From Climacium dendroides (taxonomy: Eukaryota; Streptophyta; Bryopsida; Hypnales; Climaciaceae), in contig OX467087.1 of the NCBI GenBank assembly GCA_950106755.1, positions 19,224,047 through 19,288,046 on the forward strand: a stretch of 64,000 nt of DNA, written 5' to 3'. Positions 5,035-42,744 of the stretch are shown here, in pieces. Every line of letters starts with the position of its first letter. The first letter of the stretch is position 1. Below the pieces are notes generated by a model. It saw only the letters and a list, made by a program, of their open reading frames with translations. It was not told the DNA's origin and ran no database searches. The position numbers and the translations under genes are program-made.

Positions 5035-5758
5035 GGAATCTTAGGCGGATAGTAAAGAAATCCGGTTATCTCGGATGGTAGTTAGCAATCTTTCCGGATA
5101 TTTCGGGAGGTTCAGGGATTGGTGGCCTGGATTTCCGGGTTTCCTTTTCAGGCTTTTAGGAGTTTACTTTGGATTTTTGTGTTAGTATTTTAAGGGCAGG
5201 CAAGTTAGTTGTCTGCCATTCCATCCTACTCCATTCCGTTTTAGTGCTTTCACGTATGTATTACAATTCTCTTTTCTTAATCTAAGTCAGCTAGGGTACT
5301 TCTAGCTGCACTTTTGCTTAGACAGGGTCTTTTGGCTGAGTGTATGCATGGGTGTGTGACTTGGTACTGGAGAAAGAGAAGGGAGGGAGAGGAGGAATCC
5401 GGATCTTGGGCTACTGATCTCTTGGAATTGAGCTGAGTGGGAGGAATGCAAGCCGAGTAAGGGAGTGTAAGTGTGACGTGCTTTTAATTTGCTGGAACGG
5501 CAATCCGGATAAGGCGGTAGAGGTCCCTGCGAGTCCGGAACCAGGAGGGTTCTGTGCGGAGTTAAGCAACCGCCAAAGGAAAGGATCTCCCGCTACTTCA
5601 GAAAGTCTGCCAACCTCCCCCTTGGTAAATTGTCTTCTCCTTGAGATTCTATTCTTTTGGGTCTATAAGTTCTGATCCGTCGTTGTAGTAAGAGAGGTGT
5701 GAAAAGTGCTCTGTGTGACCTGATTCCGGATCGGCCAATCCGGAAACTGTGAGAGGAT
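5035..5758. other. 3' non-coding part of the gag-like element
   Basis: No gene. Rich in TCCGG/CCGGA. It contains polypyrimidine tracts, and the segment 5690-5758 is alignable with 45040-45090. It ends in GTGAGAGGAT (5749-5758), the target duplicated by the MULE insertion. Confidence 0.5.
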
Positions 5759-5890
5759 CAGGGTTGCTAGCGTGCGAGCTTGGGAGCAGGAGCCTGCGAG
5801 CTTGTGAGCGGGAATTTTGTTTAAGAAAAATTTTGTGCAAAAATCAAAAGTTGAATAGAAGGTTGGCTTAGAACCCATGACCGTGGATTT
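5759..5890 (+). repeat. MULE left terminal inverted repeat
   Basis: Imperfect TIR; the outermost 35 bp match the right end best (GCTAGCGTGCGAGCTTGG core), and the inner block CCCATGACCGTGGAT is shared. The two ends have length differences between these blocks. Confidence 0.8.
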
Positions 5891-6650
5891 AGGGTGACTG
5901 TAGGCTCTATAACCGTGGATTAAAAAAGCAAAAGCAATTTAGGGAATGTAGTGCCATTTGTGGACTATGAAGGATACTTCTATATTTAAGGGATTTTTGT
6001 TGCACATAAAATAGAGCTAGGGTGTCTTATCAGACATGGACTGTTGGAAGAAGGTGAAAGTACCTAAATGAGCCAAAGGTGTAGGGTGGCAATGTTATGT
6101 ACTAGTGATATTTTATTGTTGGGGGTTTAGGTAGAGTGGTTCACTTGTTGAGCTTTGTTTGGCTTCCTATTCAAATGTATGTGTTCATTAGAAGGGCAAG
6201 TGTGACCTCATTTTATTCCCTACTTCATATCATGACTATCACCATTTAAAGGTGACTACATTTATTTGCATTCCATTTTTTTTCCACTATGTAGGAGTTA
6301 ATATTGGAAGGAGTTATAATTTCTTTCCATTTTTATTCCAAGCACATTTATTCGCGCTACTCACTAATTTGCAATAAATAATGTAGTGTACCTTGTTTTC
6401 TCTATTTTTTTCCCACTACAGAGTACCTACTCCTACAGTTGTAAATGAACTCCAAATTCTATAATTCCCACACTTGTCCAATAGACATTGTTTCTCTCTG
6501 GGTGTATATTTCATAACATTTTTAAGGGCAAGTTTAGTATCAAGCAAGAAGTACATTGCACCTCAGACTTTATGAATAACACACACAAATCAAATAAACA
6601 TAAAAGGAATACACATAGTTCAACTCATAAGATTCGTCAATCTTATGAGT
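5891..6650. other. MULE subterminal non-coding sequence
   Basis: AT-rich, with no gene seen. It lies between the left TIR and the stop codon of the ParB-methyltransferase gene and would hold that gene's 3' untranslated region and polyadenylation signals. CCGTGGAT recurs at about 5910, a second copy of the inner TIR word. Confidence 0.5.
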
Positions 6651-9600
6651 CTAAGTTGCGGTGGACTCGGTCATAGAAACCTCACTAGAAGACGACTTTG
6701 GCGTCTCCTCACCCTCAGAAGCTGAAATGTCTACAAAATGAACCACATTTGTAGCATACTTCGGAATGCGAGGTTTAGGATCTCTACAACCATGCTGTTC
6801 ATATTGTGTCGCCATCTTCTCGGCATACACTGGAAGTTCATAAGACTTCTTCGGACTCAAGATAAGTCTTCGAATCTTCTTCATTGGGTGCGTTCCCTTC
6901 ACTGCTTCGTTCCTTCAAGAACCACACATAGAAGGTTTAGGTTCTTGAAATTCTTTGTATGCAATGTATATTACAGATCAAAAAAATGTTGTCATTACAA
7001 AGCAAAACTTACTTACTAGGTCTGACGGTGCGTGTGAACACCATTGGTTCGACATGTACGGCATCAAGATCAAGGGCGGCAATAGCTTCCACTGGAGCTT
7101 GAATCACTCCTTCTACTGGAGTGGCTTTCTTCATCAGCTTTAGAACAATGTTGAAGATATCGATGTCCTTCTCCAAGGCCACAATATGGCGGCCCGTCCC
7201 ACGACAAGCCGTAATAGATGCCCCTGCAATAGAAGCATGTGGTGATCAATGTTTAAGTACATCTTTACAAGAATAACCAATTCATTTTAGAACTCTTTCT
7301 TGAAACTGAGTAGTATTATACCTGTAGCAGTGGTGCAGTCGAGAACTACATCATCTTCATCGGTACAACCTTCGATGAAAAACTGTAGGAACCTCACATC
7401 TTTCTCTCGGGGTCCACGCCAAGGCGCTTTGGTTTCCTTGTTTACCATCATAGTCTCCTCAGTAATGTAATTGATGACTATGTCTTTCTTCTGGAGGTTC
7501 CACTTTGCTTTGGTCATGGCTGTGGTCTGCCTAAATTGGAAAAGTGATGCTACTTTTCCACCCACGTCCTTTATGAAAAGGGTGACTCCGAACTTCACGG
7601 TCTGCATCAAAAAATTAATTAGTAAAGAGGGGAATGCCATTGACAATCACACCATATATCAAACCAAGAATCACATGTAAAAGAAAACCTAAAATCACAT
7701 GAAAAATAAAATAGAGAACTCACTGTTTCGCCAAGGTTTATTCCCGACGCGAGGTCCAATTGGTTGAATGCCAACCACTCTTTCTTCATCTTCAAGTTCT
7801 TGAAAATCTTCATCAACCCTGCAAACATACTTCGAGACTGAACGCTGTAGGAATGAAATACCAGGAGACAACCATTGTCTTGTAAATACTCCTCGGCAAA
7901 TTGGAATGCATTTTGCATTCCAGCATATGTTGGGTCCGCGTTCCACGAGGGAACGTGCTTCTCTGAGACAAGAGGCACAGGCAAGTTCTCTTGGCAATCG
8001 AAGATGATTAGATCCACCAAAGGGTCTCTGGTGACCCTGTCGTTGAATGAGCGCGGTTTCCCTGCATTCACCTGCAACGAAGAAGTTTACCATGTCACAA
8101 GAGGATTGAACAAGAAACAAGAAACTCATCTAGAAATTGAAAGAGAGGAAAATTCAAATACATTTGAATGTTCACGATACCTTTTGAATGAAGTCCATGA
8201 CTTCAATATACGGATTTGGTGGTGAATTCTCAGAATCTTCCATAATATCAATGATGGACACGTTTAAGATAAGCTCCTCTATTCTGACATCGTCGTCGTC
8301 TATCACCAGAACTTGTGTGCCTTGGGTCAGCATATTCTCCGTCCACTCTGGAAGTATGGCCTTCCTCTTCATCCCGGAGTGGCTTCCTTCCACCAACTAC
8401 GAGCTCTGGTCAACTGCTGAAGACAATGGAACCCCGGTATCGCCCTCATCTTTTTGCTTGCCTTTGGCCTTCGCTTTCTCCTCCTTTTCTCTCAATTTCT
8501 CCCTCTCCTTCTCTTCTTGCTTTGCCAAGCGATCTGCTTCCCTCTTTGACTTGGTTTCTAGCGCCAAATGTAGCTTAGCTGCCTTCTTTCTGTCAGCTCT
8601 GTCCCTCTTGGCAATCGCCTTCGCCTTTTGAACTGCGTTGAGACCTGCAAACTCATCGACATTTAAGTCAACCCCACTAATGCCCTCCAAGGAATCCCGG
8701 AGGGCTTGCTCCGATGGATGCGTGTATCCAATAGGGCAATCGAGGTACCATGCGCCACGGCTAAGATGAGCCGTGGTGTACGTTTGGAGTTGACTCGAAG
8801 TGTACATGCAGGTTGCCGAATGGCGATCAAGAAAACTCCTAAGGAATTCTGGGAAGTCATCCTTTTTGATTGTACCTTTTCCCTCAAGTTCAAACTTGAA
8901 ATACCTAAATTGCCAAAAAATATGTAACATTGAAGGAAAAGTGAGCGACACGTGAAGTTTTAGTCCAGACATTTCCATCACAAATACCAAATGAGAGTCA
9001 AGAGAAAGTGAACCTGAGTTGGAAACAAATTATATGCTACTTTGAAGGCAGGCTATGGAAGTCTAGGAAGATTGAATTGGTTCCCAATTAATTAGCATTT
9101 TTGAATGAGCCTTACAATAGTGTGTAAGACATACCGATAGAGCACTCTTCTCACTGCTTGTTCAGACCCCTCATACTTCTTGAAATTGTCGCTCTTTTTG
9201 AAATAATTCGATCCCTTGAGGTAGTTCATATATCCATCACTCCAAATTTTCCTCCTCCATCCCTCCAGGTACTCTTGTAAGGTCTCCGACTGCAGCGGGA
9301 CGTTCATATTGATGACAATGCCGTCGTGCTGGACAACATCGTCAAAGTACTTCACCGTTGCATCCTCGATCTAAGAAAACATAGAACAACAATAATTTAT
9401 CATCCTCTGAAAGAAAATGAACTCTAGAAATTCTAAACAAAGAAAATCCAAATCCAATGACGTCTAAAAATTTATACAAAGATTATCACTTACCCCAGCA
9501 TACCACACACAGCGGTTCAAGAAGGGACCAAGTAATGTTTCAGAAACTGGCTTAGGCGGGAAACGCTTGGCATGTCGAGATGGTGTTGATGAGTTCCACC

Positions 9601-11086
9601 ATTTCAAGAACTTGATCTTGTGCTCTGCCGTGGTGTTGCAAGTGTCCACCATTTGTAGCTTCTCTAGAGTCATCTCTGGCACTTCATTGGCACTCCAATG
9701 TCTCTCAATCTGATATTAAAAAACAAAATGAAGTTAGTCACTGTTTCAGACTTCCTAATCGCAATGTCATATGAATGCTATGAAGGGGATGGATGTACCT
9801 CCTCAATAAACCTTGGCTTGTTTGCCGGATTGGCTACCGCCACCAACTTCGACATCTTGACGTTTAGTTTCCCGAGTTTCTCGTTTGCCCCAGCTTGCAT
9901 TGCTTGTGCTAGTTCCACAGGGGAACGGTCTTCCTGTGCTGTCACCTCATTGTATTTGCGACCAGCTGCATCTGCAGACTGCGCAACCTCTTGCTACAGA
10001 AGCAAGTGAAAAATAACACTTTCAAATACAAATAAAGAAAGTATCAAACAGAAAAGAATATAACACATCAAATTCAACAAGCCCGAGCATCCTCACCCTG
10101 AATACAAATGCCGTAAAGACTTGTAGTGGCATAGAATACCATGTTGGCTTCGGTTTCGGTGCCCCACACAGTCGAAGCTCGGAAGGCCTCAACATCTCTT
10201 GAAAACGCTCAATGGGAAGAAGGCCATACTTTTGCACCCTATAGAGTGTGTGAACCAAGTTGGTTTTGACGTGAGAATCCTCGGTGGATCTGAAAAACAA
10301 TTGATCACAGTGAGATTCAACACAGTATCTGCAGCATCCGAAAACCATAAAAAAACAAAAGTACATAAGAAAGGCTTGAAGGTATCAGACAACATACTTG
10401 TTGATGTCATGCATGACATGCATGACGAGCTCCGTCCTCTTCTTTGTGTCAAGTACAATGGCATCCACCGCGTAATGCCATTCAATGTCCTTGGAATGCA
10501 TTTTGCCAATGTACTTCATCCAGGAGATGAGTCGATGGTTTCCATCGCAAACATAGAACTTCAGGTTTTTTAAGAACCTGAGTTCGGGCACGGATTCCAC
10601 GTAGGCATTGAATGCGGCGTTCTTTTCCTTCCATAGCGGCCCCCACGCCTCCATCTCCCCTTCAGTGAATTGGGAGCTCTCTCCGGCCTCGTCAGTTGTT
10701 GTCACGTAGAAAACCGCTGCCCCGTCGCGGTAGCCCTTGCTGAACTCGTGTTCTAGAAACTCGAGGTCGCATGATAAGGTAGGCCTTACCATGGGCATGG
10801 ACACCATCTGGCAGAGTGGGATGTTCATTCTGAAAAGGTGGTGCGGCTTCATTCGAAGGGACGCTATAGAATTCACCGAATCCACCTTGTGGTACTGGCG
10901 GAGTTCTTCTTCCAAAAAATCTTTGTCATCTCCTTCCATCACAATGACCGGTGCGTCTTCTTCCATCATGTCACCCTCGTCTTCCCCTTCTCCGTCCCCT
11001 GCAATGGCCGGTTGCGTTGAGTCTCCTGTAGTTGGAGTCTGGAGATTTGTCTCTTCAGGCCACAAGTTTGATGGGGTGCCATCCAT
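6651..11086 (-). pseudogene. ParB-like + DNA methyltransferase-like fusion, 10 exons, one in-frame stop
   Basis: Exons on the minus strand: 11086-10398, 10289-10097, 9993-9799, 9709-9494, 9370-9135, 8904-8181, 8071-7724, 7601-7322, 7223-7017, 6901-6651. All introns are GT..AG with compatible phases and the total is 3339 nt (1112 residues). Residues 160-260 look ParB/sulfiredoxin-like: FYVCDGNHRL with DGNHR at 181-185, then a helix-rich segment. Residues 590-680 are a Lys/Glu-rich helix. Residues 750-1030 follow the beta-class amino-methyltransferase order: motif IV region (VDLIIFDCQENLP, 776-779 in place of DPPY), then FLQFFIEG, then VVLDCTTATGA (from 953, in place of DPFxGSG), then GRHIVALEKD. 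The fold pattern is good but the catalytic and SAM-binding residues are altered, so activity is doubtful. A TAG at 8397-8399 interrupts codon 679. ParB-methylase fusions are known from phages and integrative elements; finding one spliced inside a MULE is unexpected. Confidence 0.75.
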
Positions 11087-11288
11087 CTGCAAGTTAAAAA
11101 CATGAGAAGTTGTATTACATTTGAAATAGCCAAGATAAATGTAGAGACATACTGACATTGAAAAATTGATGAACTCCATAATGAATCAATAGATATTACA
11201 ATCAATCATTCTTGTAATGGGATTTCATGGAATGCAACTATCTCAAGAACTACATCCCTGTATCTCACTAGAGTCAATCAATCTCTAC

Positions 11289-11678
11289 ATCTTCATCCGA
11301 CTCTGAGCTCAAAAGGATGCAGACTGGATCTCCAAAATTTCGGGCACTACTATAGAAATTGTCCGTCTCAGCTGATGCTAATGGTGGGGAATAGTGGCGT
11401 GCACGCTTCTGATGTCCTTGAACACACACTTGACTCTGCACACTGGTCTCAGATGTGTCATGGAAGTTGTCCACAGCGTCTAGGACATCATGAAAAGTAA
11501 TCAATACCTCTTCGTCTTCGGGTTGATCACTGACAACGTTCTTGTCTTCCGATTCGATTGACACCTCCATCTCAGTCTCTTGCAACGGTGCAAGAGGCTG
11601 AGATGATTCTGCCTCAGCACTGACTGGTGTCTGAATAGGTGTCACTGTGGGTGAAGCTCTTCCTTGGCCTCGTCTTGT
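11289..11678 (-). CDS. Probable upstream exon with acidic SIM-like motif
   Basis: Open 130-codon block preceded by a good acceptor (CTATCTTCAG at 11679-11688 on the minus strand). It encodes a Ser/Glu/Pro-rich, probably disordered segment ending VCILLSSESDED, which resembles a SUMO-interacting motif. The proposed donor GAT|GTAGAG is phase 0 and would join the ATG-beginning exon at 11086. Without that splice the frame ends at TGA 11274. I cannot tell whether this is part of the ParB-methyltransferase gene or the last exon of a separate upstream gene. Confidence 0.45.
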
Positions 11679-12112
11679 CTGAAGATAGGCACCAATAATA
11701 GAGTTAGATATAATTTTGAAACGGGTATAAAAAAACATCTAAACTAGAAAGCCTTAAAACTAAAAGTAAATGTGAAGATCATCACCAACAAAGTCAATTA
11801 AAATTTTGGACTAGGCATCTCCACACATGTACATCCAAAATATTGTCTTTCATTTAGGATGCCTTAATCTTTTTGGCAGTACTAGGGCCCTAAATCCTCA
11901 ACCATGGGAGGTGCCTTGGACCCCTAAATCTTCAGAGGTCATCTGGTCCACCCCCGCTAAACCTACTAAAGTCCAACAAAAAATGACCTTTTCACTAATT
12001 TGGCAACAAGTGCCACACTGCAATCGCGTGCGCCACTCGTGTCACCAGCGTTACGAGCGCCACGAGCGCCGCGACTGTCACGAGCGACAAGAGAAAACCT
12101 GTGACATGCCTG

Positions 12113-12178
12113 GACTGAGATTCACATGCCTAGACTGAATCTGACATGCCTGGACTGAATCTCACATGCCTAGACTGA
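12113..12178. repeat. 20-bp direct repeat, about 3.5 copies
   Basis: Units read CATGCCTAGACTGAATCTCA with small changes and lie directly beside the first palindrome. Confidence 0.7.
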
Positions 12179-12192
12179 AATGAACTTGCAAA

Positions 12193-12300
12193 TTTTTTTT
12201 GTGAAATTTCTGGGGTCCTGGGCAGTCGGCCAAGTGGTGCCTCGGATCCGAGGCACTACTTGGCCAACTGCCCAGGACCCCAGAAATTTCACAAAAAAAA
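12193..12300. repeat. 108-bp near-perfect palindrome
   Basis: Centred between 12246 and 12247 on CCTCGGATCCGAGG. The arms begin with a T-run and GTGAAATTTCTGGGGTCC and differ from each other at only about two positions. There is no spacer. Confidence 0.85.
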
Positions 12301-12451
12301 AATCCATTTTAAGAATTACCCTTCCCCCAGGTGCACAAACTCCCTCCTCCCCGGGCGTGCTCATGCAACTTCCTTACGTGTTTTCAAATTCCATCAAGTT
12401 ATCGCAGTCAATTCATAATCGAGGCACCCAATACTCATCTCAGCGTTTCAA

Positions 12452-12617
12452 ACGAGCATGCACTGAAATGAAGTTGCAAATTTTTTTTGGGAAATTTCTG
12501 GGGTCCTCGGCAGTCGGCCAGGTGGTGCCTCGGATCCGAGGCACCACCTGGCCGACTGCCGAGGACCCCAGAAATTTCCCAAAAAAAATTTGCAACTTCA
12601 TTTCAGTGCATGCTCGT
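12452..12617. repeat. 166-bp perfect palindrome with no spacer
   Basis: Both 83-bp arms are identical as reverse complements by eye, including an 8-T/8-A run, and are centred between 12534 and 12535 on GCCTCGGATCCGAGGC. It is clearly related to the 108-bp palindrome 200 bp to the left (shared GAAATTTCTGGGGTCCT and CAGTCGGCCA). Confidence 0.93.
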
Positions 12618-12770
12618 GCCTCCCAAGAAAACTATGCAAGTCCATTTCAATACAGGTGGTGCCTCCAAAAAAATTGTGTAGGTTTGATTTCGGCCAGGTG
12701 GTGCCTCCAATAAAAACATGGTCAACTGCCCAGATTCACCAAAACGGCCCCGACGTCACTGATTTCCCCT

Positions 12771-13466
12771 GGATCCTTGGCGGGCTCCCTCGGTGCAGTC
12801 ATGCACACTGGGTTCCCCGATAGCGTCAACGGTGGACTGAGGTGGATTCGGCCACGTTGCTAGATCCTTGGCGCGCTTCCTCGGTGAAGTCATGCACACT
12901 GGATTTCCCGATAGCGTCAATGGTGAACTCACGTGGATTCGCCCACGTTGCTGGATCCTTGGCACGCTTCCTCGGTGCAGTCATGCACACTGAGTTCCCC
13001 GATAGCGTCAACGGTGGACTGAGGTGGAATCGTCCACATTGCTGGATCCTTGGCGGGCTCCCTCGGTGCAGTCATGCACACTGGGTTCCCTGATAGCGTC
13101 AACGGTGGACTGAGGTGGATTCGGCCACGTTGCTAGATCCTTGGCGCGCTTCCTCGGTGAAGTCATGCACACTGGATTTCCCGATAGCGTCAATGGTGAA
13201 CTCACGTGGATTCGCCCACGTTGCTGGATCCTTGGCGCGCTTCCTCAGTGCAGTCATACACATTGAGTTCCCCGATAGCGTCAACGGTGGACTGAGGTGG
13301 AATCGTCCACATTGCTGGATCCTTGGCAGGCTACCTCGGTGCAGTCATGCACACTGAGTTCCTTGATAGCGTCAACGGTGGACTGACGTGGATTCGCCCA
13401 CGTCGTTGGATCCGAGGCGTGCTTCCTCGGTGAAGTCATGCACACTGGATTCCTAGATAGCCTCAT
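12771..13466. repeat. 91-bp tandem satellite, about 7.6 units, in a 273-bp higher-order pattern
   Basis: Unit starts at 12771, 12862, 12953, 13044, 13135, 13226, 13317 and 13408, all exactly 91 bp apart. Each unit has GATCCTTGGC, CCTCGGTG.AGTCATGCACACTG and GATAGCGTCAA. Units alternate in an A-B-C order (TCGGCCACGTTGCT, TCGCCCACGTTGCT, TCGTCCACATTGCT endings), so triplets resemble each other more than neighbours do. Open reading frames through it on both strands are a by-product of the period. Confidence 0.93.
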
Positions 13467-14741
13467 TGAACGCCCAAGCTAACGCCCAAACGGAACGCCA
13501 GAACTGAACGCCCAAACTTAACGTCCAAACTTTTTTATATGTGATTCCAAATTAGACTGTCGGTTACATTTGCCGCACTTTAGAATTCCGGATCCTGGTT
13601 TCACCAAGGTACACCACCAGGAGGTCCTCAAAATATCACAAGAGATTCAAACTTACGAGAATATGCATTACATTTTAAAAATGAAATCAAGAAGATTGAA
13701 CTGAGCTCCAATAAACGGTGCTTACGTGAATATGTTCAAGAACTTTCACATATTGAATTTTATTTCTACTGGTGCAAATCCGCTCTTCATTTGTCAATCC
13801 TATTTTCTGTATTTTACGGTTTTGAAAGTATATTAACTCTTCAAAGTGTAGGGACTAGTCTTCAAGTCATCCCCATATTACCATCCTGGATACTATGAGA
13901 GATTTTACAAATTTTTGGTTTTCATTAGTCTCTATAGAGCTTTAGTGAAGACACTTTCCAAAAGAGAATTTCTGCATGTTGAAACACTTACCTTGAATGC
14001 TATACAAAATTCAAGTCACCTTCCATGTGATATAAGAAACAGGAACAAAGAGGGGCACAATGAGAACGACACAGAAATTGAAAATGACTCTGTTGCCAAA
14101 GCTTTTCCGAAATTCACTAGCCATGGTACCCAAAACTTTGGTCTTCTGAATTCTAGTACGAAAGTTAGTTTCATTCTTTGGAGGTTTTCCATATAGGAAA
14201 TAACAATAGTATCATTCTCGTATTGACAAAAAGAGTGCAATACTAATGTGGCTGAAATTTGTAAGTGCGTTAGAACTTACAAGCTGCAGATTCTACTTGG
14301 ATTCTACAGGGTGTATTTACAAGGCTATTTTGAAATTGTCAATTGGTCTCTTATAGAAACCCAGTACTGTGTATGTGCATGTCTCCAAGGTCCCTAATTT
14401 TAGCATTTAAAATCTACTCTAGCAAAACCTGACAGTGTTTTTCTTCACAAACGTTGTTCTAGATATTTGAGTTACAGTTGTTTCGAATGAAGTCTCTCTA
14501 TCCTTGAACTTTTGTAGCACATCCACGAACCCTACAGTTCCCTCTTCTAAACTATTAATGTGAATCTCAATATACTTGCATGTGATTGCAATCCTTCCAA
14601 CTTTGTTCCATGAACAAACAAGGAGGCCACATGACTCTACAAGCTTTCCTTAGAGGAGTAGAGTGAAGACAGTTCTTTCACTGGAGTGAAACCAAGGGAC
14701 TCAAATAGTTTTTAAAGAAAACACAAAGATGTTGTGCTTAC

Positions 14742-15090
14742 ATTTGAGATGTCGACTGTGTTCTTCCCACGTCCAAAGCTCAAACTGTCTGCTGAGGCCT
14801 CTCCAACAAGTTGGACATTTTCACCAGGGACATCCTCTTGCCTGACGATACTCCCGCTCTCGAACTGCAGAACTCTACGAAGATCTGGAGACGATGTCTC
14901 CCTGGACTTTGGCGCTCCTCGTATACCTCTTCTCATCCTCGACCGCTTTAGTTCTCTAGCTAAAGAATAGTAAAAGGACCCTCGTCTCTTTCTTCTTTGC
15001 CTGGGCCTCACACAAACAACCTCACTAACCTCGCACCCTACAAGCATGAAGGGAAAATTGAGGGCATTGCCATCGTCGCTCTCAACTATA
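14742..15090 (-). CDS. Probable 5' exon, basic/Arg-rich segment
   Basis: A minus-strand open block ending at the strong donor AAT|GTAAGC (phase 0), which is compatible with the phase-0 acceptor at 11679. It encodes RPRQRRKRRG, a likely nuclear localisation signal, and then a disordered Ser/Glu-rich stretch. The start is uncertain: either an acceptor TATAG near 15090 or a methionine at about 15042. I recognise no family. Its orientation and phase make it the best candidate for the 5' end of the ParB-methyltransferase gene. Confidence 0.4.
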
Positions 15091-16545
15091 CCACAGAACA
15101 GAAAACAACCGGAAGACAATGAAAACTAAAGGAAGCACATGAAGCCTTACACGTTTGGCCAGGCATTCCTATCAATAGCCGCCAAAATTTGAATCTACAA
15201 TGACAACACACATGCGAATTTGCTTCGTTTGTAGGCGCCTTCAGCTGTGAAGGACATCGGCCGTCAAATCCTTTTTAAATAGGTTGGCCCTGACCATAAT
15301 AGGACTGTCAGTACACATGAGGGCACCGCCAATTCCATTAAAATTAAACCCTAACAGGGTGAAACTACTTTCTCAATGCACAACGTTCACTCTGACAAAG
15401 TACTTGTTCTTCCCTCTAATGCTGTGCAAAAGATCCTTATTAGTGTTGCTCTATTCATGAATTGCTCCCCATTGAATGAGCTCTGCTAATTATGGTTGCC
15501 TAGAATTTGAAGGTCTCTTAAACCTTGAATTTAAAATTTGGTTTTGATTTCATGCAATCTACCCCACAATCTATGAAATAAAGTACCAAGTGCCTTCAAT
15601 GTTGTTGGATGAATATAAACGAAGTTCTTAGTGTATCGTGTATGCATTTAGTTGCATAGACAATAATCAGTATTATGATATGGGTATTTTAATTGACTAA
15701 ATCAAAACCTCAAAATTAAGGAGGCGTCCAAGGTGAAAATGTAGTTTAAAAATTAGCTATGTCATCAAATTATGGTAATAAAAAATTTATCTATATTGGC
15801 AATGTTTTTTGTTTAGGAGGTTAGTACCTCATGTTATTAGAGACTAAATTTTCTGTATTGCACATCATCACTAATATTTCGCTGTGCCTTACTTCATGAC
15901 ATCTTCCCAAAAGTAAATTTTGTAGCATCCTAGCATAATTATTAATTTCAAGATATGCCAATCATTAATTTAAGGAATAGAATTTGATGGGTGCAATTAT
16001 GCATATTCATGTCATCCGGTTTTGTGCAAGTTCTTTTTTAAGGAGCGGTTTTAATTACAAAACTAATTTCTATTGAGTGGATTCCAGGATATATTGTCAC
16101 CAAAATTTCTTTGTGATTCATTTTCGCCTCTTCATATCAAGCTATATGTGCTAGTGCTTTTGTAAGGAGCATTTCAATTTTTAAATTAATTAATTTGATT
16201 GGATTCCTAAATGTACTGTTCCCAATATTTATTTGGGAGGCATACTTCTCTGCATCACTATGTTGTTAGAGTGTTCCTTGTGCTTAGCAGTCATGTAAGA
16301 ATTTGAAATGACCTTTGAACTCATTAATTTTCTTCAATCTCAACTGCCATATCGTTTCAAATTATATCAAAGATGTCCCAAATAGGTGTTAAGATTTTGC
16401 TAATTGGTTTTAACATATGATTGCTATAGGACAAACCAAAGATGCACCACTATCATTGAGAACCCATACCTTTTTGTTGTAGAGATCATCTTCTTGGTTG
16501 CTTGGACTTCTCCTTGTTCCTTGACATTCTCCCTTTGCTGCAAAG
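15091..16545. other. Intergenic region between divergent MULE genes
   Basis: AT-rich, no gene found. Diverged direct repeats occur at about 15990-16330 (variants of TTAATT...TTGATTGGATTCC and ATTTCTATTGAGTGGATTCC). It presumably contains the promoters of both outward-reading genes, but no motif is clear enough to call. Confidence 0.5.
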
Positions 16546-19500
16546 ATGGCTTCCATTAGAGTAGACGGTTATGATATACCTGTAGTGTTCCCAATTGTTC
16601 ATGGTGGTCACGCTAGAGTTCCTAGTCACCTTCTGCACGTCCGTTTTAGGTTTGTAGAAATGTCCATCTACGTTGAGGAGGAGAAAATGTCCAAAACTGG
16701 CGAAGTGATTCAATCTGTTCCGGTTGTGAGGTCTGACGATGATGGGACGCATTGTTGGTATCTTGGTCCAGGAAATTACAGGGCATACGGACTTCCACTC
16801 TCCATGCTAGGTGCGTCAACAGAAATCCAAAGTCGACAGTTAGATAATTCTACCGTGAATATGCCAGTCACTACTCACACTATGTCACCCAGTCCGTCGA
16901 CAGATGTTCCAACTGTGCTACATATGCCTTCCAAGCTTCTTGTTGTGAAAGAGGAGAAGTTAGATCCAATCATAGAGTTGTCAAGTGAATCTGAAGGTGA
17001 ATCCCCCAATATTAGTACTCAAAGAGAGGAGGATTCATTCCGCATGGCATCTGTCCAACCCACTATGCTAAAATCCTCATGTAGAATCTTGTCAAGAAGT
17101 CTCTCCAATTCCTCATTCTCACTCCCCTCAACGCCCCATCCTGTTGAAACTAGGGAAAGCATTATGGAGTGTCTGAAGGGACTTGGTAGTATGCAGCGCT
17201 CTCGGAACGAGTTGTCCGCTATGGATTTGAGCACAGTGAAGCACCAAAGAGTTCCATTCCTTCCAACAGTTTACAATGGAGATGTCATCTTCGAATTGCC
17301 TCCTTGTGGGGCATCTTCATCTTCGTCGGGAGCCAAGAACTTGGAGGGAATGGACAAGCGCTACGATGGACATCCATGGTGCAAGCTTGTGACTACCAAT
17401 ATCCAGAACTCCGACAACCTAACATTTCGTAAGTCCTATTGTGCTGGCCATCTTGCTTGTGAGAATGCCAATTGTGAGTACATGAAGAGAGCTTCGAAGA
17501 AAAACGAAACTGAGTGGAGTGGCTACACTGTGTTTCCTTTCGCCCCCGGTGAAGCCCCCCCCAAAGGACTCCACTCTAGTGTGCAAGGTTTGCAAGTTGG
17601 CTCCCCAGTGTCTAGGCGCATGCAAGGCTAGGATATATTTTGTGTATTCTAAAAACCCTGAAATGACGAGGGCGGCTATTCACTTCGGAGAGCATGGCCA
17701 CCCGGTTGCTACAGGCATGTACAGGGACTCTACCACCCTAATACACGGACTCATTGCAGAACAAGTGGCAAAAACACCCACGGCCACTAACTCTGCAATC
17801 ACTCTCTCAGCTAGTAAAGACTTCCTCGGAAGCTATCTATTCCACAATGGAGATGGAGAGAAGCAGATGCTAAAAGCTGACGAAATGGAAGAGGTCATGG
17901 ACCGCTTCCAATACTTGAGTAGTCCAAGTATTCGAAATGTCATCTCTTCTTTCCGCTCAAACAACCGAGGAGGGGTAATTGACAACATCATGACCATGAA
18001 GAAGGAGTCCAAGTTTGAGTTCATACATGACAGCGTCTTCCCAGGTCAAGGCAAAGAGAAGGTTTACATTTTCAAGATGCTCACCGAGGGACCAGGAAGT
18101 GGAGTCGACCTTGTGAAGCGGATGCAACCGGATGGAGACCTGTAGAATGCATGGTTAATGTTTGACCACGTGAAGCGAGTAAAGGAGTGGACCACAATGG
18201 CTTGCCACGTGTATGATACCAACTACAAAAAGGTGATGACGATTGCACTATGCGATATGCAATCCGAAGATACCGAAGTGCAAGTACAGTTTTGGCGGAG
18301 CTTAAACGCGGTTATGCAACGCCACGGAGTACCAAACCCCAACTTCAAGGGATTCATGGCAGATAGTGCCATGGCCAATTGGAATGCAGTGCGGATAGTG
18401 TATGGCACTGGTTTTGCAAATGTTGAAATGGAGAATCGTGAGCGGACATGCTTATTGCATTGGAGTACCTCTCTTCACAAGCACACACAAAAGTACATCA
18501 AAGAAGTATTTCAACAACAACATTTAACTCTGTGCAAGCAATACAAAGATTCAAAGAATATGGATCAAGCAGAGGTCCGTTATCTCGCAATACGGTCTTA
18601 GTGGTTGTCATCTGGTGCGGCCAACGAAGAAGGCTTACATCACCTGGACCATTGGCTTGCTTTCTAGCATTTCAGATACCGTCAATGGGGAGGCTTCATG
18701 GACTTGGTGAGTCAATTTTGTCCGCAAATGTGTTTAGGTGCTTAGGAATCTCTGGCTCACTTTGCATGATGATGTTATTTGTACTTCTTAAAGAACTTTT
18801 TCTTAACTTCTTTTTGTTAATTAAGTTGAACATTTTATTTCTATTTATCAAGAAGTTGGGACGCTTCACACAATAGGAAAACATGCCTTCGATTTGAGAC
18901 ATGAATAGTCCATTGGATGAGGCCTTACCTGTTTTCTAAATGGAAGAGTCTGAATTAAATTTTAATAGGGGCAACAGTTATAGTTCTCTCAAATTTTTTT
19001 GATAAAATATGAGAAATTTTCTCTCTTAGGAAACAAAACTTAGGGGTTCCCTCCCCACCTCCAGTACGTGCCTCGGATCCGAGGCATGTGTCGGAGGTGG
19101 GGAGGGGACCCCCTTCATTCTTTAAACTTGTGTCCCTAAATCTGACTTGATAGTTGCATTTCATAATTGTTTTCAGTTATTTTAGGTTTGGATTTTTAAG
19201 TAGGCTAGATGTGTTGTGTTCGGCGGTAGCAGTAGATTTCTACTATCAGAAGGCAGTACTTGTCTTTCGTCGTATAGAACTATAAAAGTAATGAAAATTA
19301 TTTATGAAGATGCTACTCGTTACAACGGTGGTGAATATTTGTTATTAACTCTGTTATCCCTTTGATTACAAAATTCAGAAATTGAATTTGGAGGAGATGT
19401 TGGATTTGCCATCATGCAATCTATCCGAAACGGTGCATAACAAGTGGCTACAAATGTCCGGGAAGCGAGGCAACAGCTTGTTCGATGCCACATGTGACGA

Positions 19501-20767
19501 CAGTATCCGTGCTTGGATGCAAATGACAAACTACCGTGCATACTTGAAAGGTTCTGCAGCGGGATCAGGACCATCAAAAGGGGAGTTGAGGTTGAGAGCT
19601 GCAAGAAGAAGCGGAGACCCCCAAAAAATTGCACAGGCACTGAACACATTGCCTGGAGCAGAGGACATGGGAACTAGAGTGCCACACTTGGAAGGAGAAG
19701 AAATCTTTGGGAGCACTAAGAGAAAGTTGGATGTGCCCATCGGTGATGAAGGAGACTCACACAGACCAGACAAGATCAATTTTTCCCAACCCCGTGTCAA
19801 AACACGATCCACCACGAATGCTTCTCAATCATCTCTAGACAAAGGTAAGCAAATTCAAGCAAAGACTTCTGGGCATGTGAATGTAGCATTTGAAAGCGAC
19901 TGCGATGCATCCAACTGGCACATTGCTAGAATCAGCCACAAATCCAACGCAAGATGTCAAGCTCAGCAGTCCAGGTCTAACATCAAGTGCATTAGCAAGA
20001 TTGCAAAAGGAAAGAAGGGAACTCCAGCTCCTACTTACCGCGGCAGGAAAGAAGAATATGGTAGTAAGCGAGAGGTGGTGGCTGATTTTTGGTTCTGTTG
20101 GGATGATATTGAGCGATGCGTGAAGGGAACAAAGCGCAAATGGGTTTTAGATTGGCCAGAGGTGCCAGAGTTTTGGCCTGTTCTCTCTGGAACAAACTTA
20201 ACCCGCGAAGAGACCTTGTTGCTGCAACATGCCGGATTTCACCTCCAAGAACAACCAATTCTATCACCACATCGGCTATTCTACATGTCTAAGCTATTCA
20301 AGCCGGTTTTGTATGACAACCCTCCGCCACTAAACTCAGATGTGTATCCAACAGTGAGGAACAACAGAGTAATTCGAAGGATTGCAAATGCGCCTACTCC
20401 CGAGCAACGGAACAAGTGGGAAAGCGCAGGCAATGTTAAAGGACAAATTTTGGGAGTAACACTGCTCCCTTTTCCAGGCCTTGGTGCAATTGTGGAGTTA
20501 GAGACAGGGTCAAACTCTAACAAAAATACATACAGAGTTACAATGGGCCAATTTCCCACATGCACATGCCCAGACTTTGTGAATATGGCAGTTTCTGCAA
20601 TTGGAGGTCGGCAACAGTACGTGAATTGCAAACACTTGTACTATTTGTATAGGTACTTTTGCAAGATGGATGTCAATGAAGACAAATTTATTCATGCACC
20701 AAGCTGTAGCTTCAATGAATTGAAGTTGTTGCTACTTCAGGTTGCCATGATCACACTTCCAGAATAG
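16546..20767 (+). pseudogene. MULE transposase with GCM/WRKY-like finger and SWIM finger, decayed
   Basis: Two exons: 16546-18706 (donor TTG|GTGAGT) and 19379-20767 (acceptor TTCAG), phase 0, about 1183 residues once the frameshift is discounted. Order: an N-terminal unknown region with IIELSSESEGE (SIM-like) near 17000; a Cys/His zinc-binding region (DGHPWCKL ... CAGHLACENANCEY ... CKVCKLAPQC ... HFGEHGHPV), like the GCM/WRKY fingers of MULEs; a MULE DDE core (HVYDTNYKKVMTIALCDM, then GFMADSAMANWNAVRIVYG, then a C.LHW block); and a SWIM finger (CTCPDF ... NCKHLYYLY) near 20570-20650. Damage: one extra C in an 8-C run (17555-17562) shifts the frame, and TAG occurs at 18143, 18599 and 18665. 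Such a protein would cut and rejoin element ends in the nucleus; this copy cannot make a full-length product. Confidence 0.85.
19042..19113. repeat. 72-bp palindrome in the transposase intron
   Basis: Centred between 19077 and 19078 on GCCTCGGATCCGAGGC, the same core as the 12.2- and 12.5-kb palindromes, but with different arms (GGGGTTCCCTCCCCACCTCC against GGAGGTGGGGAGGGGACCCC). A few mismatches lie near the centre. Confidence 0.85.
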
Positions 20768-21110
20768 GCATAGACACGTTTCTGTATGCACTTCAGTTGT
20801 AATGAACTCTTCTTTATATATTACAGTTACAAAATTCTCATGCCAAATTTTCCCATCAAAAGTTCCATCTATATTTCCACTGACGTATCAATTTTGGCCA
20901 ATGCCTTCCCTAAACCCTCTAAAGTTTTTGCTGCTATTTTTAATTGCCCTAAACTTTGCAATACAAAATGTTTTAAATTCCTACTCGTACAGCAACACTA
21001 AGTATCATGAGTGCTGAAAACGGTAAAGAGTTCCCACAGCAATGTTCACAAGACAATATTGCCCAGTTTTCTACAAAAACTGATTCAAAATTTGCATAAA
21101 CATCTATACA
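20768..21110. other. 3' flank of the MULE transposase gene
   Basis: AT-rich with no gene. It would contain the 3' untranslated region of the transposase and leads into the right TIR. Confidence 0.5.
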
Positions 21111-21287
21111 TCCACGGTCATGGGGTACACGGACATAGGTCCCAAATTCACCCTAAACAGCCAAAATAAATCAATTTTTTGAATTTTTTTGGCCAAAAAA
21201 AAAAATGAAAAAAAAATTGGGAAATTTTTGGCTCCATGCTCTTCGCTCACAAGCTCCCCGCTCCAAGCTCGCACGCTAGCGTCGTTG
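21111..21287 (-). repeat. MULE right terminal inverted repeat
   Basis: The reverse complement starts CAACGACGCTAGCGTGCG. It shares GAGCTTGTGAGCG and CCCATGACCGTGGAT with the left end. A/T-run expansions make it about 45 bp longer than the left copy. Confidence 0.8.
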
Positions 21288-21772
21288 GTGAGAGGATACT
21301 CCCTCCTTTTTCCTACAGCGGTGTTGTCTTGGATGTGTTGTTAGTAGATTTAGAGCATAGAGAGGATATTGCACAAGTGGTGAGTCCCCACCCCTTTCTA
21401 GATCAAGGGCGGACCCTCTGAGGGTAAAACAGAGGCAACAAAAACCAGTGACGGAAGGGAGACGGAACTAAGTTCCGGGTGTGTCCGGATCCGGAACGGA
21501 ATCCGGAATGTACTACGTTTCCGGAACAAGATAGGGTAAGTAAAAGAAAGAGGATTAAGTGAGTAGTCACAATCCGGATACTTCTAACTCAATCGATATC
21601 CTACTAGAAGTTCCCTGGAACGATAATTCGTGTCATCTTGCAACCATTTGTCGTTGTAAGGATACTTACGGCTAATTGCGCGTATGACATGGCAATCAAG
21701 AGGACCCCACACAACGCTCACAACCAACTCAATGAAGAGGTGGAAGGCTGAGAGTATGCAGGGCGGGGACGG

Positions 21773-22752: not shown

Positions 22753-23454
22753 ATGGTGAGAGAAGAGGTAGCTGTATCCTTATGCATGGTGAAGCCGGTG
22801 GTACCAGCTGATCCAAGAGAGAAAGCGGAGCTAGAAGAAGACCTCCGGTAGATGGGGTGCGAGGGGTTTCTAGCCCGGCCATGGAATTTGAAAGACGAGA
22901 AGATTGTGAAGGAGGTAATCGGCGCACCATTGAGGAAGTGGAAGGGGACGTCGAGGAGCCGGCCCAAGGATTGGACTCCAACATTGTGGAGGGAGACATA
23001 CGATTTCAAGAAGACGGACAAGGGACCGGCTTCCCGGACAAACCGCTTCTTTGTAGGTAAGTTCCAGAATCCCCCAACGAAGAAGGATGGTTTTCTTGTG
23101 GCAGAATGCATAAATGGTAGGGAGAAACGATTAATGAAGTATCTAGCAGCCATCCTTAGTCCAAAGCGGCCAAACAAGATTACGGTCACCTTGGCGAACA
23201 CTATTTTTGGTGCACTGTTGGGTGATCGGAAAGTAGATTGGGGCGTAGTGATGAGAGATCAGATAAAGAAGTTGGTAGGAGGCATAGGGAAGTCTAAATC
23301 TTCCCCTATAACCCCTTTTCTCTACCACTTGTACCAAGCACATGGCTGGCTTACGAATAGAGAGTTAGATTCATATGATACAGCCAAAGTCATGTCAGAA
23401 TTTGAAATAGAAGACCCGGATGAGGAAGCCGGGCAGGAAGAGGAAGATTCAAAG
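22753..23454 (+). pseudogene. Gag-like protein, truncated by the hAT element
   Basis: ATG at 22753; TAG at 22849-22851 interrupts, and the same frame continues to the junction at 23454. Residues show the family domain: ARPWNLKDEKIV, then KKDGFLVAE, then PNKITVTLANTIFGALLGDRK (over 20 residues in full; key part TLANTIFGALL), VDWG and FLYHLYQAHGWL. The acidic linker (DPDEEAGQEEED) is cut where the hAT terminus CAGGGTTGTC begins at 23455. The C-terminal half is absent from the expected place beyond the hAT element, so a rearrangement followed. It is more diverged from the other two gag-like genes than those are from each other. Confidence 0.65.
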
Positions 23455-23715
23455 CAGGGTTGTCGTGGACGTGCGTCCGCGGCGAAATTGCGTCCAAAAT
23501 CGGACGTCCGGACCCTACAGACGCAGACAGACGGTCCTCGGTCGCCGTCCTGCGGGCGGGCTGGTCAGATTGGCGGACGGGCGGGCGGACAGACGGCCGT
23601 TTTTCTTGGCGGACGGGCAGATGGGCCAGCGGACGGGCGGACGGATGGGCGGACGGGCGAGCGGACGAAGTGGCGGACGGAGTGGCGGACGGGCGGACGG
23701 GCGAACGGTTCAAGG
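23455..23715. repeat. GC-rich CGGACGG array at the hAT-side end of copy 1
   Basis: Degenerate array of CGGACGGG words (dense between 23570 and 23705) beginning with the element terminus. Seven further arrays of this kind occur in the window at equivalent positions around genes. Confidence 0.9.
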
Positions 23716-24104
23716 GCCAAGGGGTTTAGGGAGTCTGGGAGTGACCGACTGAGAGAATGAGGGTTTGTAACTTTGCATTTTGCAATTTTGCATGATTTTC
23801 AGTTTGTTTTAGGGTTCTTCTTACATATTTGTGAGTTTTGGCGCTTCAGAAATTTTTACGTGCTACACACTTGAAATTGAGAACAAAAAATAACACAATG
23901 AAGATTTCTTCAATATCACTTGGGACAAAATCCCCCCAAAATGATAGTTTCATTAATTTTTTCAAGATAATTTGGCAACCTTGTACTACTATGAAATGCT
24001 CCGAGAACTAATAAATCTTAGCTATTCATCTCTCTAAATCGTAAGCATTTGAGCACCAAGTTCTGTAAATGTTCTTCATTCAAATCCTTTCTAAATTTGA
24101 ATGC
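23716..24104. other. 3' flank of hAT gene, copy 1
   Basis: AT-rich, no gene seen. It contains the presumed 3' untranslated region of the minus-strand transposase. Confidence 0.5.
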
Positions 24105-27100
24105 CTAGGGGTGGTAATCACTATCTCCTTTCACCTCTGCCCCGCTACTGTACTCTCTTGATTGGAATCCATCATCTTCATCACTCATGGTGTTCTCTTC
24201 ATCGTCTGATGAAAGTGTTTGAGTTTCCCCTCTTTTCTCTTGTACTGTTGAAGATACACGAGCTTTCTTAGGCTTGCCCATCATTTGCTCGTTCTTTGCT
24301 TTCATCAAGGTTTTTCCTACACGTTCACGGAGGCGATCAACCGCTTTTCCTTTTCTCAACGGAAGTTCTGGAATAGACAAACGCTTATCAAGGGGGGGTT
24401 TTCCTACATTCACTTTCTTCGTTGGAGAAATAGCAAACGGCTCCATTACTCGTTTGTTCTTTGCTTTAGAGGGTTCTTCCATCATCATTGTCATCCCTGC
24501 CTTTCTCCCTTCTTCAGTGAATGCCTCTATAGCATTTGAAGATTCCAGTGTCGGGTCCGCTAGCCTTGTTGAAGATGTTGGTAGGCGGTTTCCTTGCTTC
24601 TTTAACATTGAGGCCAACGTCTCATCTTCCTCGTCATCGGTGAATGAAGAAATCTGCAATCTTTGATTTTCGGTACGTTCTATTTCTTTCGAAATGATGG
24701 AAGCTCGTGTCGGACGTTGAGAACTTCCTGAACCCACCAAAGTAGTGCTTACACTATTAAATAGTGAGCATGCACCTATTGGAGGAATGCTACGCGGTGG
24801 ACGTACAAAACTTGTCATGTTTTCCTTTGTGCCTTGGCCACTGTTCGAACTTCTACATTCTATCAAACGCGAACATACATTGTCTTGTGTCCCACTCGCT
24901 TCATGGTTTAGGCTACTTGGTTCCCCGTTGCTTTTGCTTGCCAATCCTCCTAGAGACTCCACGCTTATCTTGTCCACATTCATTTGCTCGCGGTCCTCAA
25001 CGTTGTCATTCTTTTCTAGTTGGGCCACCACTATGGATGGAGACCTACCGCTTCCAATCACTTCATCTATTTCGGAAGTTCTAGCATTGGATGCTATGGT
25101 TCCATTAGAAGTCAGGACTTGGACATTTGCGTCCTCTTCGTTTAGATTGAGGACCTTGTCACTACTTAGAAATCGATTTCCATCTACAAACCTTGCTATG
25201 GAAGGTACGCCTTCATCGTTTCCACAATCATTATCGTCCATTGAAAAGTCGTACTCGTCTCGGTCATTGTTGCCCATGTCATCATCATCCATATTTACTC
25301 TTCCAAAATGTTCACCTCCAAAATTGTATGTGTTGCCATCCAAATCTTCTTCTTCATTGAATATTGGGTCGTCCCAATTTGCTTCTTGTCCATGTGCTTC
25401 ATTCCCGTCCATACGAACACCTTCTTCTTCATCTTCGCTGCTCTCGTCATCTTCGTTTGGTCCCTCCGATTCTTCTGAATCTACATTTTCAAGGTACCAC
25501 TTCTTCTCATCCCTCTCCTTGGATGCGGCCAACACTCTTGAATTAGTGTACACATACACCAAATCCGCAACTCTCTTTGTTCTCAACTTATTCCGAGATT
25601 TGTTGTGAACAAAAGAATAGCTACTCCAATTCCGTTCACATGAAGATGAAGATACCGGTTGGCCCAATATTCTCCTTGCAATTGGAGCAATGAGCTTCCC
25701 ACATGCGCCTTCAAAATCCCACCAAGCGTGTGCCGATAATTTTTGTTCACTTGGATCCAACATGTTGTGGAAGGGAGGCTCCCTATGTCGAAACGCCATG
25801 AATTCCTTGACGACGTCCGCGTAGTCCGTAGGTTTACATATTCGCATGAGAACACGCTTGCATGCCTCGGTGGCCTTTGAATCGTCGGCTAGTTCTTTAT
25901 CGTGCAAAAGATAGGGATTCAAAAGAGCTCCTGCATATTGGAGATCGGTCTCTACCATTTCCCATCTAGCGTTGAACGCCTCCTTCAATGGTTTGGCAAA
26001 TTCAAGGCTCAATAGAAAAGGCGGATTTTCTAACCCCCCCACATGCGTTCGTATCTTCCTCATAATATGCAAAACTTTCCCTGAACATGGCGTCTTTGCA
26101 TCTAAATCACGAAGGCCATACACAACAGCGCCCATCAATTGCACAAAATTCGTGCAACGCCTCCAGAAATGCTCATTGTTTATTATCTTCTTTGTACACC
26201 GAGACTTTGTACAGTTCTTCTTTTTCTTGTCATCCAACGTCCTCACATATTGTTCCCAACGTGGATCTGTCACACTCTGTTAAAGTGCTCCCTTCACTTT
26301 CAACAAGCGTTTAAGCGCAATGAAATTTGAAGCAAATCTTGTTTCGCTTGGCATCAATAAGCTGTGCTCTTTTTCGTATGAACGAAATATTGCAAGTGGC
26401 ATGTGCCGCTTTCTAAAAAACGTAAGAACCATACGAGCTTTGGCCACGACATCCGCCACCCATGCTTCCATCCGCCACCCATGCTTCCTTCCCCCAATCT
26501 TTTAGCAACAAATTCAAGGCATGCACCACACAACCTTGAAAAGAAATGTGAGGATATTTGTCTTTTATGATTCTACATGCTCGAGGGTTTACAGGAGCAT
26601 TGTCCGTTGTTATTTGCACCACATTATGCGGACCCACCTCCTGTATGAATTTGTCCAAAATAGAGGCCAAGTACTCTGCGTTTTTTACGAACCCACTTGT
26701 GTCCACCGATCCCAAAAATTGCTCCCCTGCAGAAGATACAAGCATACAATTCACCAATGGCCGATTTGTAACCGAACTCCATCCATCAATAGACAAGGTT
26801 GCTCCAAACTTTCTGATACTATCCTCGGTCCTCTTCTGCAACTTTAGCTTGACATCTTCTTTCGCTTCTTCTAGTAATTTGGTTCGTAGAGCGTCGTACG
26901 ATGGTGGGTTGTATGGCTACCAAACTCAGCTGTTTTCTTCACTGCTTCTTTGAAGGCCTCACTTCGAGCTACCGCAAATGGTATGTTGGCTGAATAGAAG
27001 AAATTGGCCTACAACGCATTCAAATTGCGTCTATCAGCTTGTTCAAACCCATCTACTAGCCGACTTTGTCTTCGTGACCGATTGATGGAAGAGGGTGGAG

Positions 27101-27497
27101 TTGGACATTGTTCACTTGATGTTTCCACACTTTGATGTACCCTTGAAGACGCACGATGAATTTCAGACGGCGCTGCACATGAGTCCTCTTGTGTTGAACG
27201 TGAAAAATCCCTTCCATTTGAGGCATTGCTTGCAACCCTCCCTATGTTTTCACCATCTACATTGTCAAGGGCCGATCTTCGTGGACATAATCCATTACAA
27301 CCGGCAAAAAGAGTTCGAATTGACGAAGTCAATTTTGGACATATGCTTACCTCCCTGTCACGAACACCGTCTTTGCCTTCATATCCAAGGTGGCTCAACA
27401 TGCGACACTTCCGATTTGCAAACACCAAGTCACATGCCTTGCACTGCACTTTACCGCTTGATGGAACAACATACCAACCGGAAAAATCCTTACTCAT
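24105..27497 (-). pseudogene. hAT transposase (BED finger, DUF659, dimerisation), copy 1
   Basis: ATG at 27497. An N-terminal BED-type zinc finger (CKACDLVF with a downstream SHLGYEG histidine) is followed by a DUF659/RNase-H-like core (FGATLSIDGWSS; TTDNAPVNP; GCVVHALNLLLKDW), the C-terminal hAT dimerisation region (AWWDFEGACGKLIAP ... SSSCERNWSSYSFVHNK), and then an unusual tail of about 450 residues rich in Asp/Glu/Ser ending SSGAEVKGDSDYHP. Breaks: TAG 27009 (a Trp codon in copy 2), a frameshift near 26925, a 19-bp tandem duplication at 26450-26487 that shifts the frame, and TAA 26280. From 26273 to 24105 the frame is intact, including the dimerisation segment. A TATAAG box lies at 27674-27679. 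Confidence 0.88.
26450..26487. repeat. 19-bp tandem microduplication inside hAT copy 1
   Basis: CATCCGCCACCCATGCTTC occurs twice in a row (26450-26468, 26469-26487); the paralogue at 59110 has a single copy. A 19-bp duplication shifts the reading frame. Confidence 0.92.
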
Positions 27498-27737
27498 TGT
27501 GGAAAGCTCCGTTCAAGTTCAAGTCCAAGTTCAAGTTCCAATCTTGTCTTTAGTTCCAAATGTTTAGGTTCAAATCACCATGTCACATGTATCAAATATA
27601 GTCTGTAAGCAAAGCCTTGGAAATCTTAGTGTTCAATTTCTCAGAAGTGCTTGTAAATGCCTTCTTCCTTGCTCTTATACTCCTAATTTGTTGAATGTTG
27701 TATGCCTTAGAAGTAACCGTTGCCAACGGTCAGAAAA
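27498..27737 (-). promoter_or_regulatory. hAT copy 1 leader and TATA box
   Basis: TATAAG on the minus strand at 27674-27679, in GTATAAGAGCAAGG; copy 2 has GTATAAGAGCAAGG at 57825. It is about 180 bp before the ATG. The leader is alignable with 57826-58096. Confidence 0.65.
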
Positions 27738-30739: not shown

Positions 30740-31050
30740 GAGGGTAGCTCTACCCGGTTTTCACTCTCTACAGTCCTAAAAAGGGAGCGCGCGACACTCA
30801 GATGTTCCACTCCGCCTATAAACTACCCTACCGGCGTGCTCACACTCTTAGCTTCTCACGTATCCGCTCGCACTCAAGGTCTCACCCACTCATGTCCGGA
30901 GGAGATCTCTCCGTCTCACACCCTTCTCTCACTTCCGTACCCTCTTGTACTTCCTCTCCCTGGCCGTGGTCAACGATAGAAACGTCAGGCGCTAAATCAG
31001 GACACAACAACACGTGGAAATCCAGAGACCTGATAATGGGCAAGGCCAGG

Positions 31051-42433: not shown

Positions 42434-42744
42434 CCTAGCCCTGCCCATTTTCAGGTCTCTGGATTTCCACGTGTTGTTGTGTCCTGATTTAGCGCCTGAC
42501 GTTTCTATCGTTGACCACGGCCAGGGAGAGGAAGTACAAGAGGGTACGGAAGTGAGAGAAGGGTGTGAGACGGAGAGATCTCCTCCGGACATGAGTGGGT
42601 GAGACCTTGAGTGCGAGCGGATATGTGAGAAGCTAAGAGTGTGAGCACGTCGGTAGGGTAGTTTACAGGCGGAGCGGAACATCTGAGTGTCGCGCGCTCC
42701 CTTTTTAGGACTGTAGAAAGTGAAAACCGGGTAGAGCTACCGTC

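Follow-up and report, generated by a model that had tools for sequence, protein, structure and literature searches.

A ParB/Srx and methyltransferase-related gene, probably accessory to a multi-copy MULE-like DNA transposon of Climacium dendroides

Why should a eukaryotic DNA transposon carry, opposite its transposase, a gene that recalls the ParB-methylases of phages? The question is raised by a stretch of 64,000 nucleotides from Climacium dendroides (assembly GCA_950106755.1, contig OX467087.1, positions 19,224,047 to 19,288,046), called the window below, in which a ten-exon gene on the minus strand lies inside an element resembling a Mutator-like element (MULE). An earlier note, made from the letters alone, had read the gene as a spliced fusion of a ParB-like and a DNA methyltransferase (MTase)-like part. 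We regard it with high confidence as the accessory partner in a MULE-like DNA transposon that has two genes and many copies; it is divergent from the transposase and combines a ParB/Srx domain with a part related to beta-class MTases. Strong selection maintains it in many copies, and a probable role is to help the element deal with its DNA inside the host. How it would do so is a more tentative matter, and identity and mechanism taken together have, in our judgement, about an even chance of being right.

What does the gene look like when its exons are joined? Translation of the minus strand from 11300 to 6501, together with inspection of splice sites, gives ten exons between 11086 and 6651 with GT-AG borders and matching phases (Table 1). 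The ten in-phase exons of the earlier note stand, while its product of 1112 residues does not: the spliced frame has 1117 codons and a stop, the TAG that closes exon 10, and the end of exon 9 was set at 7013 (exon 10 starting at 6912) because only so does the frame hold. An in-frame TAG at codon 679, in exon 6, had also been missed; the window copy is therefore broken and has no single open product. The same position is a sense codon in eight of ten sister copies fetched from this genome and in all three relatives that cover the place, one of which reads Gln. A code in which TAG means Gln was rejected, as a lone TAG and not one TAA in 1117 codons would hardly fit it. A further 5' exon is possible at about 11678-11289, where the frame is open in the window and in eight of the ten copies, has one stop in the ninth and is more broken in the tenth. 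Immediately after the gene's stop, at 6623-6650, an inverted repeat, ACTCATAAGATT...AATCTTATGAGT, can be seen by eye.

Relatives outside the genome were sought with stretches of the product, and the 92 proteins found at E <= 0.01 among 127 candidates make, with three from a separate search, a set of 95. They are exon-sized frames from assemblies and metagenomes, and their best-matching stretch is the ParB region in 70, the exon of the putative motif IV in 18, that of motif I in four and a part of exon 6 in three. A read-through search at full length (candidates of 0.55-1.75 times the length) scored 7995 and found none at E <= 0.01, which corresponds to a database that carries exon-sized frames instead. 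How these frames end bears on the splice model. The end of exon 1, MHDIN(K), is present in 69 of the 95; 53 of the 69 terminate exactly there, 16 enter other sequence, and none goes straight into exon 2. Frames ending at this point are what a conserved splice donor, starting with GTAA, predicts in genomic DNA. In relative P0045, 59% identical across the ParB stretch, exon 2 is reached in frame past an intron. Taken together, the relatives support the predicted splice pattern.

Is the N-terminal part really of ParB type, as the earlier note had concluded from a DGNHR motif? When exon 1 was tested for the ParB/Srx fold, the fold was found; it also carries the conserved active-site motif of the ParB/sulfiredoxin superfamily, which closes with His/Arg and reads D-G-N-H-R here. 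CDGNHR is read in 62 of the 69 relatives with GNH, P0034 having CDSNH, and three of 13 extra genomic copies deviate from it. Pfam and PHROG searches of the window protein matched no ParB family. When 58 members of the ParB alignment were checked, 15 families were matched, among them DUF1015 by 11 of the 58 (best 0.002) and KMP11 by six (best 6.6e-4). DUF1015 and DndB are presumably members of the ParB clan; an identity as KMP11 was rejected, its matches being taken as chance. The ParB profile met nothing relevant among PDB sequences, and the alignment found no relatives in viral contigs or prokaryote genomes.

For the C-terminal part, the PF01555 match (E 2.3e-4) lies under the curated cut-off of that family, PHROG methyltransferase families match with a best E of 1.2e-9, and tblastn in phage records gave 311 records at E <= 1, the best among the matches listed being 8e-6. 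Seven phage MTase loci were collected; with the seventh, a split gene, excluded, hhalign against the other six aligned residues 246-316 of the C-terminal part, which span the junction of exons 8 and 9, at E 1.7e-9. Toward the C-terminus, FLQFFIEG, VVLDCTTATG and GRHIVALEKD follow one another in the order noticed before, and the window copy retains the acidic residue after motif I. A relationship to beta-class MTases in the region of motifs X, I and II is thus supported at the level of sequence and profile. Two viral contigs also match the C-terminal part over the motif I stretch at 33-34% and were left aside.

It is to be noted that only one half of the proposed beta-class domain is recovered in this way. 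Exon 7, which should hold motif IV, has no profile match by itself; it is best placed at motif IV, with E 0.04-0.06 against 0.13 for a reversed control, its structure model (predicted local distance difference test score, pLDDT, 45) is too poor for a structure search, and an alignment of this region found no relatives in viral contigs. That motif IV precedes motif I is inferred from position, since the placement of exon 7 lacks significance.

Beta-class motif IV reads D/N/S-P-P-Y/F/W, and the six aligned phage MTases have DPPY or DLPY. If exon 7 is the motif IV half, its place is taken by DCxE in the window and in all 18 relatives covering it, none of which has Pro-Pro-aromatic. At motif I, VVLD(C/Y)T(A/T)A(T/I)(G/S) replaces DPFxGSG in the four relatives covering it, with FxGxG absent from all four. 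The non-canonical catalytic motifs that had been noticed in the window are therefore no decay of this copy, DCxE being family-wide. As aligned here, the altered motifs IV and I are common to the family and kept in it. Such fixed changes would accord with a changed role of the MTase domain, for which the earlier note had thought of binding or a decoy, and they suggest that this half can stay conserved without its usual catalytic motifs.

What carries the gene? Its location within a transposon with MULE-like traits holds up. The element, from 5759 to 21287 (15.5 kb), contains two divergent genes between terminal inverted repeats (TIRs) and is flanked by an identical 10-bp target site duplication (TSD); nine of ten sister-copy alignments start at base 5759, the tenth at 6169. 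Among eleven elements, the window's and the ten copies, both ends were found in eight, and all eight have a TSD of 9-10 bp: four are exact 10-mers, a fifth has one mismatch in 10, and the other three become exact 9-mers when shifted by one base. TSDs of MULEs measure 8-11 bp, mostly 9. The transposase is one open frame of 739 amino acids in six of the ten copies, followed in five of the six by a SWIM-bearing frame of 472; in the window a frame change near 17545 and a TAG at 18143-18145 disrupt its first exon. By eye, two D residues 66 apart and a C(2)H can be placed and the third acidic residue of DDE cannot, while a SWIM-type CxCPDFVN is present, as a pattern only, in the window and eight copies. 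Pfam matched neither frame and gave no MULE domain, so that the MULE label is based on the motifs, the TIRs and the length of the TSD. On these features the carrier would be a TIR- and TSD-bounded element with a divergent MULE-like transposase. An empty site was looked for in the window, where sequence spanning the insertion site was not found twice.

The two genes stay together. The ten copies all have the ParB-MTase gene region, collinear, together with transposase sequence; in one of them the transposase part is interrupted by an insertion, and one lacks the left end. The transposase is likewise adjacent and divergent in two distant subfamilies: one, with its ParB exon at 79%, has transposase identities of 77-86%; the other, with its ParB exon at 68%, has 67% in a transposase truncated where its stretch ends. 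Between the two genes of the window lies a 91-bp tandem array, present with 2-11 units in all eleven elements. Neither distant subfamily shows it between its genes: a 22-bp array stands there in one (L055, reverse complement, 7244-7397), and in the other an array of 97 bp lies on the far side of the transposase (L056, 9141-9523). A candidate binding site, GTGGAWTCGNCCAC, occurs in seven units of the window array against zero expected, yet it shows no special conservation across 74 units and was rejected. Two palindromes with related arms adjoin the array and may be nested foldback elements.

How many copies are there, and does selection act on them? In the genome of the window (412.6 Mb, 123 contigs) the gene's last kilobase has 40 scored places, of 219 candidates, matching at 96-100% with the window included; without it, 39 match at 96-99%. 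The ParB exon has 150 scored copies of 1012 candidates, at 67-100%, many of them open. Across 3354 exon bases the ten fetched copies have no indel at all. Three are free of premature stops, one of these with a splice-site change; seven carry one or two, four of them with a splice-site change as well. Thirteen diverged ParB exons differ from the window by dN (non-synonymous change) of 0.10-0.18 over the fold, with synonymous sites saturated. Among the 14 ParB exons together, 30 of 91 pairs have a usable dS (synonymous change; finite and > 0.05), and their dN/dS has a median of 0.06 (range 0.04-0.43), biased somewhat low by the choice of exons without stops. Purifying selection acts strongly on the ParB exon.

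What, then, may the protein do? That it stays paired with the transposase and is strongly constrained points to a role in the life cycle of the element, and the ParB fold points to DNA loading. The ParB-type domain would bind the element's own DNA and might, in the manner of ParB clamps, load on the intergenic repeats and spread; the domain derived from an MTase, with DCxE in place of DPPY, would mainly bind DNA or S-adenosylmethionine instead of performing ordinary base methylation. In this way the element would stay expressed or mobile in the face of host silencing by 5-methylcytosine (5mC), or the protein would help to assemble the transposition complex. We offer this mechanism tentatively, at somewhat less than even chances. 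The absence of catalytic residues argues against methylation by this domain. Two points have to be weighed here. One is that exons have diverged from the window more than introns in nine of ten copies, which at first speaks against selection. This is explained by the mutation spectrum: among exon singletons, 182 of 208 are C>T or G>A, and such changes hit 22% of CG, 24% of CHG and 5% of CHH sites (Fisher p 7e-25), while other changes are rarer in exons (26/3354) than in introns (27/1082; p 3e-5). The natural reading of the CG/CHG bias would be plant-type 5mC on the copies. The other point is that the protein of the Ectocarpus transposon Sola1-1_Ec32 is proposed, in the available text of its report, to make N4-methylcytosine (N4mC) or N6-methyladenine (6mA), which argues for an active MTase (PMC12477816).

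The same proposal stands behind a self-marking enzyme, whose ParB domain would target the element and whose C-terminal domain would add N4mC or 6mA by an unusual but working DCxE. That the DCxE stretch and the surroundings of motif I are conserved, and that the window retains the acidic residue, would suit it, but 18 of 18 relatives lacking Pro-Pro-aromatic and four of four lacking FxGxG make it rather unlikely. Could the protein be a transposition cofactor or nickase, its ParB/Srx part a nicking or clamp module that uses nucleoside triphosphates (NTPs) to aid excision or integration and its MTase part a DNA holder? Nicking nuclease or NTPase activity is reported for the ParB domains of mobile elements and for a Bacillus ParB-methylase (PMC5512222, as far as its available text goes), and the transposase is adjacent in 10/10 near and 2/2 distant copies examined. 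Against this, the transposase of the MULE Muta1 works in yeast, so that, on the accessible part of that report, MULEs in general need no such partner (PMC5225508); we think it unlikely. Premature stops in the window and seven of ten copies, and a changed splice site in five, might suggest a captured passenger gene without a role, but the value of dN/dS refutes this for the ParB exon, and the purifying selection between subfamilies, the missing exon indels, the many open ParB exons among 150 copies and the transposase linkage kept in distant subfamilies make it very improbable. Scarcely credible is a chance resemblance, with neither ParB nor MTase behind it: the want of any ParB family match in Pfam or PHROG is outweighed by the ParB/Srx fold and the PHROG and hhalign matches to MTases.

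The rest of the window seems to hold other repeats, and no RNA families or tRNAs were found in its 64 kb. Two related hAT-like transposon genes, with a BED-like start and an SCERNWS block by eye, lie at 24105-27512 (-) and 58022-61492 (+), the latter interrupted by two in-frame stops at places where its counterpart reads an amino acid. Two related copies with a RING-like cysteine pattern and long charged regions by eye, at 31915-35579 (-) and 53973-57176 (+), are possibly genes of another repeat, one being a single frame of 1067 amino acids. Related frames with an NTIFGA block by eye recur at 1772-2812, 22852-23760, 29651-30760 and 42724-44427, probably a retroelement family.

Table 1. Features of the element and of its ParB-MTase-like gene, in window positions.
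Feature	Position	Strand	Remark
TSD, left	5749..5758	+	10 bp, 10/10 identical to 21288-21297
Left TIR	5759..5803	+	element start 5759
Exon 10	6651..6912	-	
Exon 9	7013..7223	-	ASITACRGTGRHIVALEKD, MTase motif I/II region
Exon 8	7322..7601	-	FLQFFIEG...VVLDCTTATG, MTase motif X/I region
Exon 7	7724..8071	-	IIFDCQENLPVP at expected motif IV position
Exon 6	8181..8904	-	linker and charged region, interrupted by in-frame TAG
In-frame TAG	8397..8399	-	codon 679
Exon 5	9135..9370	-	
Exon 4	9494..9709	-	
Exon 3	9799..9993	-	
Exon 2	10097..10289	-	after ParB fold; also beyond intron in relative P0045
Exon 1	10398..11086	-	ParB/Srx-fold domain, residues ~80-229, motif CDGNHR
Possible extra 5' exon	11289..11678	-	acidic; AG and GT borders; in phase with 11086
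Palindrome	12193..12300	.	54-nt arms, 96%
Perfect palindrome	12452..12617	.	83-nt arms
91-bp tandem array	12769..13465	.	7.7 units, between divergent genes
Transposase exon 1	16546..18741	+	D..D..C(2)H motifs; end approximate
Transposase exon 2	19349..20767	+	SWIM-like CxCx(n)CxH
Right TIR	21243..21287	-	element end 21287
TSD, right	21288..21297	+	

Is such a gene new? The earlier note knew of no description of one, but the kind is already known, since a ParB-MTase gene opposite a transposase has been published for Ectocarpus Sola1: the available text describes Sola1-1_Ec32, of 21.5 kb, with a 1104-amino-acid ParB-like and MTase gene, and cites similar transposon-borne proteins of green and red algae (Iyer 2011; Petroll 2025) (PMC12477816). 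By its architecture, with both domains in one gene opposite a transposase and inside TIRs, the present gene belongs to this transposon-borne class. Likened by description, the two share the two-domain plan, almost the same length (1104 residues there, 1117 here), the strand opposite the transposase and a giant DNA transposon as carrier; they differ in that the carrier there is a Sola1 element of 21.5 kb with a predicted N4mC or 6mA activity, and here a MULE-like one of 15.5 kb with a 9-10 bp TSD and DCxE at motif IV. No MULE with such a gene was found in the open-access literature searched, outside which Iyer 2011 and Petroll 2025 lie. New with respect to that literature are the MULE-like carrier and the shared loss of canonical catalytic motifs, together with the conservation of a structure with many introns, the number of copies and the data on selection.

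ParB-methylases of phages and mobile elements, among the polyvalent proteins, likewise join ParB/Srx and a DNA methylase in one chain, as the available part of their description has it (PMC5512222). They are prokaryotic, and the phage MTases aligned here, in which a ParB part is not established, keep DPPY/DLPY, unlike the present family. VANC of the Arabidopsis VANDAL elements, as described in the accessible text of PMC5735166, offers another proposed likeness: it too is an accessory protein of a multi-gene DNA transposon, and its targets are non-coding tandem repeats that differ from one related element to the next. The differing arrays of the present family recall this, as a lead and not as evidence of binding. 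VANC proteins are described there with DUF1985 and DUF287, not with ParB or MTase domains, and no membership is claimed. It might be imagined that a MULE-like family turned a prokaryotic ParB-methylase into a non-methylating, sequence-specific partner that binds the intergenic arrays and counters CG/CHG silencing; we consider this improbable as a whole, and if true it would be an independent counterpart of VANC on an unrelated fold. The ParB-MTase accessory genes of algal transposons would extend to a further, MULE-like group, and to a genome whose copies appear to bear plant-type CG/CHG marks and in which the gene is numerous and strongly selected. With an MTase half that seems to be conserved without its usual catalytic motifs, the function of that half becomes a testable question, and many copies in one genome permit direct tests.
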